Shown piece by piece: positions 8,688 to 14,525 of a stretch of 41,071 nucleotides of DNA. Source of the stretch: Deltaproteobacteria bacterium (GTDB lineage: Bacteria; Desulfobacterota; Desulfobacteria; Desulfobacterales; Desulfosarcinaceae); contig JAHLLR010000047.1 of NCBI GenBank assembly GCA_020444075.1, positions 1 to 41,071 on the forward strand, written 5' to 3'. The position numbers and the translations under genes are program-made. The first letter of the stretch is position 1. The number at the start of each line of letters is the position of its first letter. The notes under the pieces are model-generated. The model made no database searches. It saw only the letters and a program-made list of their open reading frames with translations, and was not told where the DNA came from.

Positions 8688-10799
8688 ATGGAACTTGCCG
8701 AACGCAAACAGTATTTAGACCGGTTCGCCTTTGTTGCCAACAACTCCGATGTCCTGATGGGGTTTGCCGCCATGTCCATTCTCATGGTCATGGTCATTCC
8801 CATTCCGGCGATGCTGCTCGACCTGTTTCTCTCCTTTAATATCACGTTGTCACTGATCATCCTTCTGGTGGGCATGTACATCCTTAAGCCACTGGATCTG
8901 TCTTCCTTCCCTTCGCTGTTGTTGTTGTCCACGCTGTTCCGCCTTTCCCTGAACGTAGCGTCCACAAGAATGATTCTGCTCCATGGAAACGAGGGGACGC
9001 AGGCTGCCGGGAAAGTGATCATGGCTTTCGGCAACTTTGTGGTCGGCGGGAACTACATTGTCGGATTTATCGTTTTTGTCATCCTGGTGGTGATCAACTT
9101 CATGGTCATCACTAAAGGTGCCGGCAGAATCGCCGAAGTCGCCGCCCGGTTTACCCTGGACGCCATGCCCGGCAAGCAGATGAGCATCGATGCCGACCTG
9201 AACGCCGGACTGATCGATGAAACTCAAGCCAGGGAGCGTCGCGGACAGATCAGCCGCGAGGCGGAGTACTATGGCGCCATGGATGGTGCCAACAAGTTTG
9301 TGCGCGGCGATGCCATTGCCGGCATCATTATTACCTTCGTCAATATTTTGGCCGGTCTGGCCATTGGCGTCTTCCAAAAGGACATGAACTTCGTCGATGC
9401 CGCCCAGACCTATACCCTGCTGACCGTTGGCGACGGATTGGTAAGCCAGATCCCGGCGCTGATAATTTCCACCGCCGCAGGCATCGTTGTGAGCCGTGCC
9501 GGTGCTGAAAAAAATCTGGGGCTTGAAATCGGGAGCCAGTTGCTGATTCAGCCCCGGGCCTTCGTTGTCGCTTCAGTTATCCTTTTCGGTTTCGGGCTGG
9601 TCCCCGGAATGCCGACCCTTCCGTTTCTGATTTTATCCGCTACGGCTGGACTGGTGGCCTACCTTGTGTTTCAGACGGAGCGGGCCAAACGGGAAGATGC
9701 CCGGGAACTCTCCCTGCAACAGACAAAAAAGGATCAAGAGAAACCGCCGGAAACCTTCAAACCCCTGCCTCCCATCGACGTGCTGGCCCTTGAGGTCGGT
9801 TATGGCCTGATTCCGCTGGTGGATGTGGAACAGGATGGCGAACTGCTCGAACGTATCAAATCGATCCGGCGACAGATTGCCCAGGAGATCGGCATCGTGG
9901 TCCCGTCGATCCACATCCAGGACAACATGAAACTCAAGCCGGGAGCCTATTCCATTTTATTGAAGGGGATCGAAGTCGCCAAAGGCGACATGATGATCAA
10001 CCATCTGCTGGCCATGAATTCGGGCAACGCCGATGCGAAGATCATCGGCATTGCCACGCGGGAACCTACCTACGGACTGGAGGCATTCTGGATCAAACCC
10101 GCAGCCCGTGAGGACGCCAACGCCAAAGGGTATACGGTGGTTGACCTGGCCACGATCATGACCACGCATCTTTCCGATGTGATCCGCCGACATGCCCACG
10201 AGTTGGTTGGCCGACAGGAAGTCCAGAAAATGCTCGACATCATCAAGGGCAGTCATCCCAAGGTGGTTGAGGAACTGGTCCCCAATCTCATGTCCCTGGG
10301 GGGGGTCGTCCGGGTGATCCAGAATCTTCTGCAGGAACAGGTTCCGGTGCGGGATCTGCTGACTATCCTGGAGACCCTGGCGGATTGGACCCCTGCCACC
10401 AAGAAACTGGAAATTCTGACCGAACATGTCCGTCAGGCCCTGGCCCGGACCATTACCCGTTTCTATCAGGCGGAAGATGGCAAGCTGCATGTGCTTACCT
10501 TGGATCAACGCATTGAGAAAAAAGTCGCCGAATCCCTCCAGCAGACCGATCAGGGCGCTTTTCTGGCCATCGACCCCGCTTTTGCAAAATCCATTATGGA
10601 CGACCTGACCGTTAAGATGGAAGATTATAAATCACTGGGTGTTCAACCCCTGCTCGTCTGCTCAGCCCAGATCCGGAGCCATTTCAAAAAATTGGCTGAC
10701 CGGTTCCTTCCAGGTTTGGCTGTGCTTTCCTATGACGAGATTGTCAGCAGTGCCAAGATCCAAATAGTGGGAACCGTGGAGGCCTCAGATGCAGATTAA
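8688..10799 (+). CDS. flhA: Flagellar export gate component FlhA
   Basis: The 703-residue protein has an N-terminal half of about eight membrane helices, with the FHIPEP-family block (LDLFLSFNITLSLIILLVGMYI, then FPSLLLLSTLFRLSLNVASTR) and the cytoplasmic-loop TLDAMPGKQMSIDADLNAG. The soluble C-terminal half forms the nonameric export ring (VLALEVGYGLIPLVD, RRQIAQEIGIVVPSIHI). FlhA uses the proton-motive force to drive export. I place the start at ATG 8688 (AAGGAG 14 bases upstream). A GTG at 8631 is in frame but lies inside the promoter box, so it would be at or before the transcript start. flhF overlaps the 3' end by 11 bases. Confidence 0.96.
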   Translation: MELAERKQYLDRFAFVANNSDVLMGFAAMSILMVMVIPIPAMLLDLFLSFNITLSLIILLVGMYILKPLDLSSFPSLLLLSTLFRLSLNVASTRMILLHGNEGTQAAGKVIMAFGNFVVGGNYIVGFIVFVILVVINFMVITKGAGRIAEVAARFTLDAMPGKQMSIDADLNAGLIDETQARERRGQISREAEYYGAMDGANKFVRGDAIAGIIITFVNILAGLAIGVFQKDMNFVDAAQTYTLLTVGDGLVSQIPALIISTAAGIVVSRAGAEKNLGLEIGSQLLIQPRAFVVASVILFGFGLVPGMPTLPFLILSATAGLVAYLVFQTERAKREDARELSLQQTKKDQEKPPETFKPLPPIDVLALEVGYGLIPLVDVEQDGELLERIKSIRRQIAQEIGIVVPSIHIQDNMKLKPGAYSILLKGIEVAKGDMMINHLLAMNSGNADAKIIGIATREPTYGLEAFWIKPAAREDANAKGYTVVDLATIMTTHLSDVIRRHAHELVGRQEVQKMLDIIKGSHPKVVEELVPNLMSLGGVVRVIQNLLQEQVPVRDLLTILETLADWTPATKKLEILTEHVRQALARTITRFYQAEDGKLHVLTLDQRIEKKVAESLQQTDQGAFLAIDPAFAKSIMDDLTVKMEDYKSLGVQPLLVCSAQIRSHFKKLADRFLPGLAVLSYDEIVSSAKIQIVGTVEASDAD

Positions 10800-12189
10800 G
10801 CGCTTTGAAGCGACCGATATGACAGAAGCCCTTCGCCTGGTTAAGCGTGAGTTTGGCGACAACGCCGTGATTTTGTCGGCAAAAGAAATACGACCGGGTG
10901 GTTTTTTCAGTGCGTTGAGAAAAAAAAGTGTCGAGATCACTGCAGCCACCGATTATCCGGTGGACGATGCCCGGGAAAACGATGGCTTTTCCGGACTGTT
11001 GTCGGAACATCTGAACAGCGCAGGAGAAACGGACCGCGTTTCCCTGTCGTCGTCACCTCAGGCATCTATGCAAACAGGCCTGAAAGCCAGGGCCGATTTG
11101 CATCAGCCGCGGGAACCGGAAAAGCAGCGGGCACCGCGGGATGGATGGGATCTCCTGCCGGAACAGGCATTCATTCCTGATGCGGTAAAATCTAACCTGG
11201 AGATCAATGGGAGTCCGATGGCAGATAAGGGTTTGCTGTCAAAACAAATGTCACGCCCGCACAGCGACCGTCTGATCGCCGAACCCTTTTACCGCGATCT
11301 GGCGGTACAGAAAATTATTGCCCTGGTAGGGCCGTGCGGTGCGGGAAAATCCACCACGGTGGCCAAGCTGGCCTGGCATTGCCAGGTGGTTGAAAAGCAA
11401 CGGATTGGGCTCATCAGTCTTGATCGATTCAGAATCGGTGCGAACGGCATGCTGGCACGTGTTGCGCAAATCATGAACCTGCCGCTCGCGGTCGTCCACG
11501 ACGCCGAGCAACTGCAGTCGGCCTTAACCGATCTTATGGACGTCGATGTGGTGTTTATCGATACACCGGGAATCAGCAGAATGGACGATTCCATGATGGA
11601 CGGCGTCCGTGCATTGCTCCGATCCGCCAATCCGGATGAGACCCATCTGGTGATCGGTGCGACCGTCCGGGACGACGTGTTCGAGGCCACCGTAAACTCC
11701 TTTTCACCCTTGGGGGTGAATCGTTTACTGTTCACCCATATGGATGAGCCTGTCAGGGAGGGGGTCGTTTTGAATCTATTGAAGAAAAGCGGGCTGACTT
11801 CGTCCTTCTATGGCGATGGGGTGGATCTGTTCGATGGATTGCATGAATCGACGGCCGATAGGCTGGGCGGGTTTCCCCAGAATCGTGAACCCGCAGGTGG
11901 ACGGGTGAGCGTTTTTTCCAGGAAACGGACACAGCTGGAAACCGGTGCGGTTATCAGCGAGGTCAACCGCGGTTCAGTCCACTATGTGGCCAACCGCAAT
12001 TCCGAACTTTTTCACCATCCCAGCTGCAAGTCAGTCAAACGGATCAACGTGGAGAACATTACTGCGTTCAACAGCATTGAACAAGCCATGGACGAAGGGT
12101 TCAAACCGTGCCGGGCATGCTGTGACATCAGCATGCTCAGAAAAACGGTGAATGAACCTTTTGGTTTTCAGCGTGCGAGTGCCATATAA
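10789..12189 (+). CDS. flhF: FlhF, SRP-type GTPase for flagellar placement, with an unusual Ada-like zinc-binding tail
   Basis: This 466-residue protein opens with the FlhF N-terminal block (MQIKRFEATDMTEALRLVKREFGDNAVILS), has a variable linker (~75-170), then an NG GTPase domain: P-loop GPCGAGKST at 181-189, the IGLISLDRFRIGA block, DTPG at 258-261 and THMD at 316-319. The family normally reads DTAGR and TKxD, so G3 and G4 are altered and GTP binding may be weak. After the GTPase, residues ~395-450 form a domain not expected in FlhF: YVANRNSELFHHPSC, then ENI-AF-S, and GFKPCRAC, giving H409, C413, C441 and C444. This matches the Ada metal-binding fold with His at the methyl-acceptor position. 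It overlaps flhA by 11 bases; flhG follows after 17 bases. FlhF recruits early flagellar parts to the pole. Confidence 0.9.
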   Translation: MQIKRFEATDMTEALRLVKREFGDNAVILSAKEIRPGGFFSALRKKSVEITAATDYPVDDARENDGFSGLLSEHLNSAGETDRVSLSSSPQASMQTGLKARADLHQPREPEKQRAPRDGWDLLPEQAFIPDAVKSNLEINGSPMADKGLLSKQMSRPHSDRLIAEPFYRDLAVQKIIALVGPCGAGKSTTVAKLAWHCQVVEKQRIGLISLDRFRIGANGMLARVAQIMNLPLAVVHDAEQLQSALTDLMDVDVVFIDTPGISRMDDSMMDGVRALLRSANPDETHLVIGATVRDDVFEATVNSFSPLGVNRLLFTHMDEPVREGVVLNLLKKSGLTSSFYGDGVDLFDGLHESTADRLGGFPQNREPAGGRVSVFSRKRTQLETGAVISEVNRGSVHYVANRNSELFHHPSCKSVKRINVENITAFNSIEQAMDEGFKPCRACCDISMLRKTVNEPFGFQRASAI

Positions 12190-12206: not shown

Positions 12207-13094
12207 ATGCCAAATTTTGAGAAGACCGGACAGATCATCAGCCTGAACCAGAAAAGAAGACAGAGGCATTCGATGATGAAAAAGGGTGCAGCGCAGCCGT
12301 CACCGGCCAGGGTTATTGCTATCACCAGCGGTAAAGGCGGGGTCGGCAAAACCAATATCGTCGCCAATTTGGGCTACACCCTGTGCAAGGCGGGCAAAAG
12401 GGTGCTTATCTTCGATGCGGACCTGGGCCTCGGGAATCTGGATGTGCTGTTGGGACTGACCCCCCAGTACAATCTTTCCCACGTGGTCGAAGGCAGGAAA
12501 AAAATATCGGAAATCATCATCAGCGGACCGGGAAATTTAAAAATTCTGCCCGCATCGTCGGGAATTCAGGAACTGACCAAGTTGACATCTGCTCAGAAAA
12601 TTGGGATATCTAATGAACTCAATACCCTGTTGTCCGACTATGACATCGTGCTGATTGACACGGCCGCCGGCATCTCCTCCAACGTACTCTATTTCAATGC
12701 GTCGGCCAACGAGATAATGGTCGTCGTCACCCCTGAACCGACGTCCATCACCGATGCTTATGCATTGATGAAAATCCTTTCGGTCAAATACCAGGAGAAG
12801 CATTTCCGGCTGATCGTCAACCTGGCAAAAAATTCAAAGGAAGCCGAAGAGGTGAGCCGGCAGCTCTGTCTTGTGGCCAATCGCTTTCTGGATGTCTCCA
12901 TCGAATATTTCGGGAATGTGCTGGTAGACGACAAGGTGAAAGAGGGTGTCCGCAAGCAGAAAGTCGTCAGTGAATTCGCCCCCATGACCCAGGCGAGTCG
13001 AAACTTCGCCGAATTGGCCCATAAACTGGTCCGATCCCAGCCGATGATTCCCAGCCTGGAGAATCGGCCGCTGATCTGGCGGGATATCGTGTAA
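12207..13094 (+). CDS. flhG: FlhG (FleN/YlxH), MinD-like ATPase controlling flagellar number
   Basis: The 295-residue ParA/MinD-family ATPase has the deviant Walker A motif SGKGGVGKTN near residue 40, the switch I block IFDADLGLGNLDVLLGL, the Walker B stretch IVLIDTAAGIS and a C-terminal basic/amphipathic segment for membrane contact. It partners FlhF to set flagellar number. The first ~30 residues are basic; the FlhF-activating DQAxxLR peptide of other FlhG proteins is not clear, though GQIISLN at residues 8-14 may be a decayed version. The start at 12207 has GGGAGA upstream. It lies between flhF and fliA, the conserved order, with 157 bases to fliA. Confidence 0.93.
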   Translation: MPNFEKTGQIISLNQKRRQRHSMMKKGAAQPSPARVIAITSGKGGVGKTNIVANLGYTLCKAGKRVLIFDADLGLGNLDVLLGLTPQYNLSHVVEGRKKISEIIISGPGNLKILPASSGIQELTKLTSAQKIGISNELNTLLSDYDIVLIDTAAGISSNVLYFNASANEIMVVVTPEPTSITDAYALMKILSVKYQEKHFRLIVNLAKNSKEAEEVSRQLCLVANRFLDVSIEYFGNVLVDDKVKEGVRKQKVVSEFAPMTQASRNFAELAHKLVRSQPMIPSLENRPLIWRDIV

Positions 13095-14010: not shown

Positions 14011-14072
14011 TCGAAGCCGCACGCATCGATTTGAATGCGAGACCGTATCGACAAGAATAAAAAGAGGTGAAC

Positions 14073-14525
14073 ATGTTACATGCCAGCTATGAAATTTGGG
14101 CCGTCGCCGTTATCTTACTGCTGATCGGGTTCTGGATCCTGAAACGGGGGCTTGCCCGAAAAAGTCCTGAACAGGGGGACGGATTGAATAGCGCATGGTT
14201 CGATTCCTCCAGCCGGGAGCACGATATCGAGCATCGGGCACTGATGTTCCTGATGGCTCAAAAAACCGATTCCGTACTGGCCGCACTGGCTCGCACCCTC
14301 GAGCATGAACGACAAAAACTGGGCGGCGTCGTCAGAAAACCGTCGATGTCCGACGCCATTGATGCATTGCAGGCAGAAGCGAACCCTGCCTCGACCCATC
14401 GTCATTCGTCCTACGACCAGATTCTGCCCATGGCCCACGACGGGATTGCCGTTGCGAATATCGCCCGTCAACTGCAATTGCCCGAAGCGGAAGTTTCTTT
14501 GGTAATGCGTCTGAATGCCGCATAA
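14073..14525 (+). CDS. Small membrane-anchored protein downstream of fliA, SwrB-like in position and layout
   Basis: The product has 150 residues. One N-terminal membrane helix (about residues 6-25, IWAVAVILLLIGFWILKRGLA) is followed by a charged, poorly conserved cytoplasmic middle and a C-terminal helix-turn-helix-like segment (YDQILPMAHDGIAVANIARQLQLPEAEVSLVMRL). This layout, and the place directly after the sigma-28 gene, match Bacillus SwrB; the C-terminal segment also resembles DUF2802-type motility proteins. I chose ATG 14073 over the in-frame GTG 14067 because AGAGG then lies 5 bases upstream. A terminator follows, so it ends the flhA unit. A role in export-gate or basal-body maturation is inference from position; sequence identity to SwrB is not established. 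Confidence 0.7.
   Translation: MLHASYEIWAVAVILLLIGFWILKRGLARKSPEQGDGLNSAWFDSSSREHDIEHRALMFLMAQKTDSVLAALARTLEHERQKLGGVVRKPSMSDAIDALQAEANPASTHRHSSYDQILPMAHDGIAVANIARQLQLPEAEVSLVMRLNAA

Follow-up and report, generated by a model that had tools for sequence, protein, structure and literature searches.

FlhF proteins of a Desulfobacterota lineage carry a C-terminal Ada-like His-Cys3 domain

We found that the FlhF encoded in the window (the whole 41,071-nucleotide stretch of DNA analysed here) ends in a domain that, judged from its sequence, is homologous to Ada's zinc domain and belongs to a His-Cys3 accessory type. An earlier note on this DNA had pointed out an Ada-like domain at the C terminus of FlhF and framed it as a feature of one protein. 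The tail is real, but it proved to be a trait of a whole FlhF lineage rather than of a single protein. The surprise lies less in the domain itself, which is common, than in the fact that a whole lineage has it fused to FlhF, alongside the absence of a helix from the accompanying FlhG and the erosion of the GTPase centre in the window's own group. We think the chances somewhat better than even that the tail is a zinc-stabilised docking module, held on a flexible linker, within a rewired FlhF-FlhG switch; the zinc, the partner and the rewiring are what we infer.

FlhF of the window and its C-terminal domain

The flhF gene stands in the order flhB-flhA-flhF-flhG-fliA, with flhB and flhA upstream and a MinD-type flhG and fliA downstream. 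The features of this locus that bear on the argument are as follows.

10789..12189, + strand: flhF, with C-terminal Ada-like domain; continuous ORF of 466 aa
10789..10959, + strand: FlhF residues 1-57, N-terminal head resembling the FliG interaction domain (FID); AlphaFold2 pLDDT 78-96 in blocks of ten
10975..11226, + strand: FlhF residues 63-146, predicted disordered (AlphaFold2 pLDDT), at the expected place of the N domain
11281..11868, + strand: G domain of FlhF, approximately residues 165-360, with an intact P-loop but a substituted chamber Gln and G4 Lys
11869..11979, + strand: variable flexible linker, residues 361-397; AlphaFold2 pLDDT below 50 at 367-369 and 371-395
11980..12126, + strand: Ada-like His-Cys3 tail domain, residues 398-446 (PF02805, AlphaFold2, Foldseek, dN)
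12013..12027, + strand: predicted zinc ligands H409 and C413 (HxxxC), present in 65 of 65 tails
12109..12123, + strand: predicted zinc ligands C441 and C444 (CxxC), then C445
12207..13094, + strand: flhG (MinD-like), without DQAxxLR, with substitute motif GQIISL (12228-12245)

The protein matches the SRP54 GTPase domain (PF00448, E 2.4e-27, Pfam) and, in two stretches, TIGR03499 (E 9.3e-51), where its 173.5 bits fall just below the cut-off of 174.15. A sequence search gave the FlhF entries 2px0 and 8r9r as its closest solved structures, and 8r9r and 2px0 were also the best Foldseek matches to the full AlphaFold2 model, which was built with 59 FlhF sequences. We class the protein as a diverged FlhF, an assignment made on features other than the chamber Gln and the G4 Lys. 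In the model, pLDDT is below 50 at residues 63-109 and 111-146, and the N domain seems to be missing or disordered. Because a regular expression for the N domain gave no discrimination among FlhFs, this is claimed from the model of the window protein and for that protein alone.

The Ada likeness of the tail was recovered by each kind of search. Residues 398-445 match PF02805, the "metal binding domain of Ada", at E 1.2e-7 and 32 bits (cut-off 23), and the tail alone reaches 36.5 bits (E 5e-9); the window's genome passes this cut-off at two places only, one on contig C167 (102.8 bits) and the other in flhF. Four E. coli Ada sequences top the PDB sequence search with the window FlhF (E 0.001-0.0027). 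The AlphaFold2 model shows the tail as a separate, confident fold, with block means of pLDDT of 92-95 over residues 401-440 and values below 50 in the linker to the G domain; modelled on its own, the tail has core block means of 86. When this tail model was compared with the PDB by Foldseek, the top four matches were the N-Ada structures 1u8b, 1zgw, 1adn and 1wpk at probabilities of 0.92-1.00, with a fifth match at only 0.15; the best E value was 0.0035, and none was at or below 0.001.

The ligands named in the earlier note, H409, C413, C441 and C444, proved right in both residue and coordinate (codons 12013-12015, 12025-12027, 12109-12111 and 12118-12120). In the PDB sequence search they align under C38, C42, C69 and C72 of Ada, where we take C42 and C72 to be the ligands that correspond to C413 and C444. 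A survey of FlhF homologues, as that note had proposed, found the tail in 65 of 119 distinct FlhFs; all 65 tails carry the four-ligand pattern HxxxC-x27-CxxC and none of the 54 FlhFs without a tail does. When the last 110 residues of each of the 65 tailed FlhFs were shuffled, 65,000 times in all, the pattern arose a single time. The tail probably holds one structural zinc at these four residues. The passages of PMC4437013 used here name C38 and C69 of Ada. At the first of these positions all 65 FlhF tails have His in place of the methyl-accepting Cys38, and because the acceptor Cys is replaced, we rejected methyl-phosphotriester repair as a function of the tail, at least by that route, in agreement with what had been proposed from the window sequence.

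We likewise rejected the idea that a frameshift, raised as a caveat in the earlier note, or an assembly artefact joins a separate gene to flhF. The ORF is continuous, and the same continuous fusion recurs in independent genomes, among 65 distinct FlhFs in all; one of these (L042) comes from Desulfosarcina widdelii NZ_AP021875, a complete chromosome. An artefact is therefore exceedingly improbable. The other outcome by which that note would have been refuted, the lack of an Ada-type profile match, is excluded by the PF02805 result.

To gauge conservation within FlhF, the window protein was compared with its six nearest named FlhFs. Identity is 76-94% in the tail and 81-93% in the head, against 47-74% in the NG region and 19-54% in the two linkers, and dN is 0.035-0.139 in the tail as opposed to 0.168-0.481 in the NG region, a difference of 1.7 to 5.4 times when taken pair by pair. 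By these values the head and the tail, not the GTPase, are the best-conserved parts of FlhF in the window's group. The linker before the tail varies between 15 and 59 residues (median 36) among the 65 tailed FlhFs.

Spread of the tail, and changes in FlhG and the GTPase centre

The FlhF match runs into the tail in 26 of the 30 genomes of the window's family, its own included; the other four, some of which are incomplete, gave distant GTPase matches and none at the level of FlhF. Across 194 genomes of the order, an FlhF match at E 1e-50 or better was obtained in 105, and 42 of these, spread over 15 family codes, have the tail. In an even draw of 297 genomes from the phylum, 158 gave a match at E 1e-30; among the matches listed, 7 of the 158 have the tail, and four of the 7 belong to families f116 and f133, which lie outside the order. 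For these genome counts a tail was scored when the match reached at least position 465 of the 484 in the model, and the count for the order is our own tally. We also scanned 84,980 species, one genome each, with two peptide patterns from the FlhF head, a search that may miss tailed FlhFs elsewhere. The best 80 of 108 confirmed relatives were taken, and the tailed ones among them belong to Desulfosarcina, Desulfatitalea, Desulfatibacillum, Olavius symbionts, and genomes named as Desulfobacterales or Deltaproteobacteria.

The 119 distinct FlhFs, pooled after 21 duplicate rows had been dropped, were placed in a tree built without the tail columns, on which the tail was then marked. The tree was inferred rapidly under LG+G4, and many of its forks are open. 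One branch, with an SH-aLRT of 99, separates 42 tail-less rows from 77 rows that hold all 65 tails. We refer to the 77 rows as the lineage, a usage that assumes a root among the 42 or between both sets, and the distribution of the FlhG motif described below agrees with that assumption. The tailed lineage is largely Desulfobacterales, and most of its members are sulfate reducers. Twelve lineage rows have no tail, one of which (L088) is a contig end and is not counted as a loss, leaving 11 that are truly tail-less. The tail label needs nine changes on the tree with L088 left out, while the supported branches force only two with all rows, so that, given the open forks, the numbers of gains and losses are uncertain. 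A single clade of FlhF tails is compatible with the data (AU p 0.927; 128 related domains, 53 columns), and a single origin, which 53 columns are too few to establish, is not rejected. The tail is best read as having been added to FlhF once or a few times, in one Desulfobacterota lineage.

We considered whether the tail had split off as a separate gene in the tail-less kin and rejected this, since no credible free tail was found among ORFs of at least 25 codons at the 119 flhF loci, the best stray match having E 0.006. In eight genomes with a tail-less FlhF (seven from the lineage, and G487 from outside it), the domain was found elsewhere in the genome in six and was not found in two.

The gene next to flhF has also changed in this lineage. 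In other bacteria, according to passages of PMC12826062 and PMC11236974, FlhG has an N-terminal helix with the motif DQAxxLR, the Gln of which stimulates FlhF, and the FlhF head binds FliG while the NG domain binds HubP (passages of PMC11236974). DQAxxLR is absent from the window's FlhG. It occurs in none of the 65 FlhGs beside tailed FlhFs, as against 36 of the 53 beside tail-less ones (one locus has no FlhG), and when DQV and DQG are allowed, the counts are 0/76 for FlhGs of the lineage and 37/42 outside it. Because FleN of Pseudomonas likewise has no DQAxxLR (according to the part of PMC12713375 consulted), absence of the motif alone is not unique. The FlhGs of the lineage have a substitute N-terminal motif around V-I-x-L, in 75 of 76 as opposed to 1 of 42 outside; this pattern is loose and was defined after the sequences had been inspected, with the outside rows, two of them without a readable P-loop, as the control. 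As a side observation, the V-I-x-L motif makes a clean marker of the lineage, seen in the FlhG of the window (12207-13094) and in FlhGs beside the FlhFs of L008-L246.

The GTPase centre of FlhF was examined at two residues, the Gln of the EQL motif, which we take to be the catalytic chamber residue, and the Lys of TKxD, which we take to be the G4 residue of SRP GTPases. In the window FlhF they are replaced by M221 (11449-11451) and H317 (11737-11739), respectively, and the P-loop Gly/Lys and Asp319 are retained. The chamber Gln is kept in none of the 16 Desulfosarcina/Desulfatitalea proteins, in 40 of the 49 other tailed FlhFs, in 10 of the 12 tail-less lineage rows and in all 42 rows outside the lineage. 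For the G4 Lys the corresponding counts are 0/16 (15 His, one Cys), 41/49 (the other eight have Arg), 10/12 and 42/42. Judged by these two residues, the GTPase centre is eroded in Desulfosarcina/Desulfatitalea. With L088 dropped, Gln is lost in 25 of 65 tailed and 2 of 53 tail-less FlhFs, and Lys in 24 of 65 and 2 of 53; we claim no correlation between the tail and these losses, since both follow the tree and tree-aware pairing had no power to separate them from common descent. Separately, the G3 motif reads DTPG, with Pro, instead of DTAG in 54 of 65 tailed FlhFs.

Kin of the tail and its possible roles

The domain is by no means confined to FlhF: a profile of 30 FlhF tails matches 138 of the 297 phylum genomes at E 0.001. 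Host proteins were examined at 70 loci, of which the tool selected 30 and we picked 40 by hand for unusual lengths or families, so the proportions that follow are not representative. Typed by sequence motif, the 63 non-FlhF hosts comprise 37 SNase-type nucleases, one of them in the window's own genome (L148), seven small proteins no longer than about 140 residues, each of which to the eye has a hydrophobic stretch close to its N terminus, two S1/P1-type nucleases (a third, L166, was recognised by eye), five Ogt/Ada-type proteins and 12 others, at least one of them a diverged relative of SNase and another a TPR protein. Pfam, run on the true locus sequences of seven hosts, gave SNase for L143, L148 and L170, S1/P1 for L161, Ogt-type for L162 and TPR for L154; the Ada domain passes the Pfam cut-off in L143, L150, L161, L162 and L130, and not in L148 or L170. 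Where the motif can be read, the first ligand is His in 30 of 32 SNase tails and in all seven small proteins, and Cys in all five Ogt/Ada-type proteins. Nine hosts have no readable motif, and five of these are SNases that have lost Cys ligands.

By this comparison the FlhF tail is most closely related to the His-type modules that SNase-type nucleases and small, probably secreted proteins carry in the same phylum. Of the likeness to Ada proposed earlier, the Ada-type fold held, but Ada itself is not the closest relative. More broadly, these matches show that the Ada zinc fold is in wide use as an accessory module, that it has a His-type form, and that it is common in the phylum. Several hosts are worth recording in their own right. 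L160, L161 and L166 are S1/P1-type nucleases (Pfam was run on L161) that end in an Ada-like tail in which part of the ligands is lost, and L126-L129 are small proteins of about 110-136 residues in which a hydrophobic stretch accompanies one His-type Ada-like domain. Genomes G150 and G213 have four and three matches, respectively, in several kinds of host. The SNase tails of L176, L177, L179, L182 and L183 have lost the Cys ligands and kept the sequence core, and are perhaps metal-free versions.

Two positions and the overall charge set the FlhF tails apart from these relatives. Position 401 is Ala in all 65 FlhF tails, compared with 4/28 nucleases (24/28 have Gly), 1/7 small proteins and 2/9 others. 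Position 406 is Asp or Glu in 53 of 65 FlhF tails, compared with 0/7 small proteins and 0/9 others, and in the nucleases neither is among the six commonest residues, which account for 25 of 28. The mean net charge is +2.71 in FlhF tails (n=65), +7.59 in SNase tails (n=32) and +4.57 in the small proteins (n=7). The Ala401/acidic 406 signature and the lower charge suggest that the FlhF tail has specialised away from a basic surface.

A polar landmark is one kind of partner that such a module might have. The C-terminal domain of FimV/HubP was not found over its cut-off in any of 60 relatives, the window's genome included, nor did any match pass it in 14 control genomes; matches below the cut-off occur in 27 of the 60 relatives (E up to 0.01), with none in the window's own genome, and with silent controls this is a weak negative. 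Downstream of fliA, a FipA-like DUF2802 protein is encoded at 14067-14525 (E 3.8e-7; 30.6 bits, cut-off 33.5), and DUF2802 matches at E 0.001 were found in 22 of the 60 relatives, with three passing the cut-off; within the genus, 11 of 13 genomes have a match. The partner of the tail may be the FlhG N terminus, the FipA-like protein or another landmark.

What might the tail do? The role had been left between localisation and the binding of DNA or of a partner, and the evidence now leans to partner docking, with nucleic-acid binding as the main rival. In the docking reading, the FlhF head would hold FliG, as it is known to do elsewhere, and the tail would bind a protein partner at the pole or within the FlhF-FlhG pair, the disordered linker giving it reach. 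FlhG of the lineage has lost the glutamine-bearing helix that stimulates the FlhF GTPase elsewhere, and with that enhancer gone the tail would likely be part of a rewired scheme of control or anchoring, the tie between tail and rewiring being one that we draw. This tie is loosened by the 11 tail-less FlhFs of the lineage that also adjoin a DQAxxLR-less FlhG: the FlhG change reaches tail-less members, so the two are not strictly tied, and this favours a change in FlhG that either preceded the tail or came about independently. A stronger version, in which the switch has been rebuilt, the FlhF GTPase is decaying towards a pseudo-switch in Desulfosarcina/Desulfatitalea and the tail is a HubP-independent pole anchor, possibly acting through the FlhG motif or the FipA-like protein, strikes us as rather doubtful. 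Docking must also be set against the nature of the other typed hosts, most of which are nucleases (37 SNase-type and two S1/P1-type of 63) and point to nucleic acid instead. If the tail were a nucleic-acid-binding module, it would tether FlhF at the pole to DNA or RNA, and it would hold in FlhF the place of the RNA-binding M domain of Ffh. The best argument for this comes from Ada, whose DNA affinity is set by the charge at C38, methylation of that residue relieving repulsion from DNA (passages of PMC4437013); His at this position would leave the metal site permanently less negative and so keep it competent for DNA. The tail's net charge, moreover, is still positive, and basic residues are common after C413, K or R occupying position 414 in 54, position 417 in 48 and position 418 in 55 of 65 FlhF tails. 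Yet R45 and R71, the base contacts of Ada (according to the same passages of PMC4437013), are each replaced in at least 64 of 65 tails, the position of R45 being V/A/T/I/S/C and that of R71 being M/A/T/Y/S/N/L/D in 64/65. In addition, the charge is far below that of the nuclease tails, the residue at 406, near the site, is mostly acidic, and Pfam finds in FlhF no second, AraC-like DNA-binding part. Nucleic-acid binding is thus a minority possibility in our estimation, and on balance a protein partner seems the likelier for the tail.

Two further explanations carry less weight. The metal site could be a sensor, with zinc loss or oxidation under oxygen or metal stress altering FlhF activity in these anaerobes, and C445, found directly after C444 in 75% of 28 tails compared earlier (the window's included), could take part in it in the members that have it. 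In 16 of the 65 tails, however, NP follows the last ligand and C445 is absent, and the same module occurs in proteins with signal-like starts, where cytosolic redox sensing is unlikely; we regard a sensor as improbable. Marginally less probable still is that the tail does no more than stabilise FlhF, or that it has no specific role and is tolerated as a passenger. Its loss, or failure ever to be gained, in 11 lineage members would fit a passenger, but the low dN of the tail relative to the NG region in all six comparisons and the retention of four ligands in every tail speak against one, and the predicted disorder of the joint makes it probable that the tail is not packed on the G domain.

Comparison with known systems

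The tail was said at the outset to be foreign to textbook FlhF, and the layout described in passages of PMC12826062 and PMC11236974 (FID head, linker, NG domain) agrees with this. The word "zinc" is absent from the main texts of PMC12713375, PMC12826062 and PMC11236974, as far as the portions consulted extend. Among the papers listed by searches of the open PMC literature, no title or abstract describes an Ada-like or zinc tail on FlhF, subscription papers lying outside the scope of these searches. As far as these searches go, the combination of tail and FlhF is new within the open literature, and it may be described in subscription papers or domain databases. A 2025 review treats FlhF placement without known polar landmarks as a matter for future studies (passages of PMC12826062). 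The lineage described here pairs an extra, strongly conserved FlhF domain with the loss of the FlhG enhancer helix and, in the window's group, with the erosion of the catalytic Gln and the G4 Lys, all of them textbook parts of the switch. It offers the tail as a small, defined module for probing landmark binding, and a natural experiment on the need of GTP hydrolysis for flagellar placement.

With FlhF, the SRP-type GTPase of flagellar placement, the window protein shares the FID-like head, the SRP GTPase domain and the flhB-flhA-flhF-flhG-fliA gene order; it differs in its extra zinc-type tail, in the replaced chamber Gln and G4 Lys, and in having no confident N domain. The neighbouring protein resembles FlhG/YlxH/FleN in being a MinD-type ATPase that adjoins flhF, but the FlhGs of this lineage lack the DQAxxLR enhancer helix (as does Pseudomonas FleN) and have a conserved V-I-x-L motif. 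The tail itself has in common with the N-terminal zinc domain of Ada (PF02805; 1u8b, 1zgw, 1adn, 1wpk) the fold, the four-ligand spacing and the ENI/ENV...F...GF.PC..C core. In contrast to Ada, it has His for Cys38, is without the base-contacting R45 and R71, and sits C-terminally on a GTPase with the other Ada domains absent. The His-type modules on SNase-type and small Desulfobacterota proteins share with it HxxxC-x27-CxxC and the same core, and are mostly C-terminal or free-standing. Their hosts, however, often start with a hydrophobic segment that reads by eye as a secretion signal, and their tails are more basic, whereas the FlhF tails are cytosolic by context and have Ala401 and mostly Asp/Glu406.
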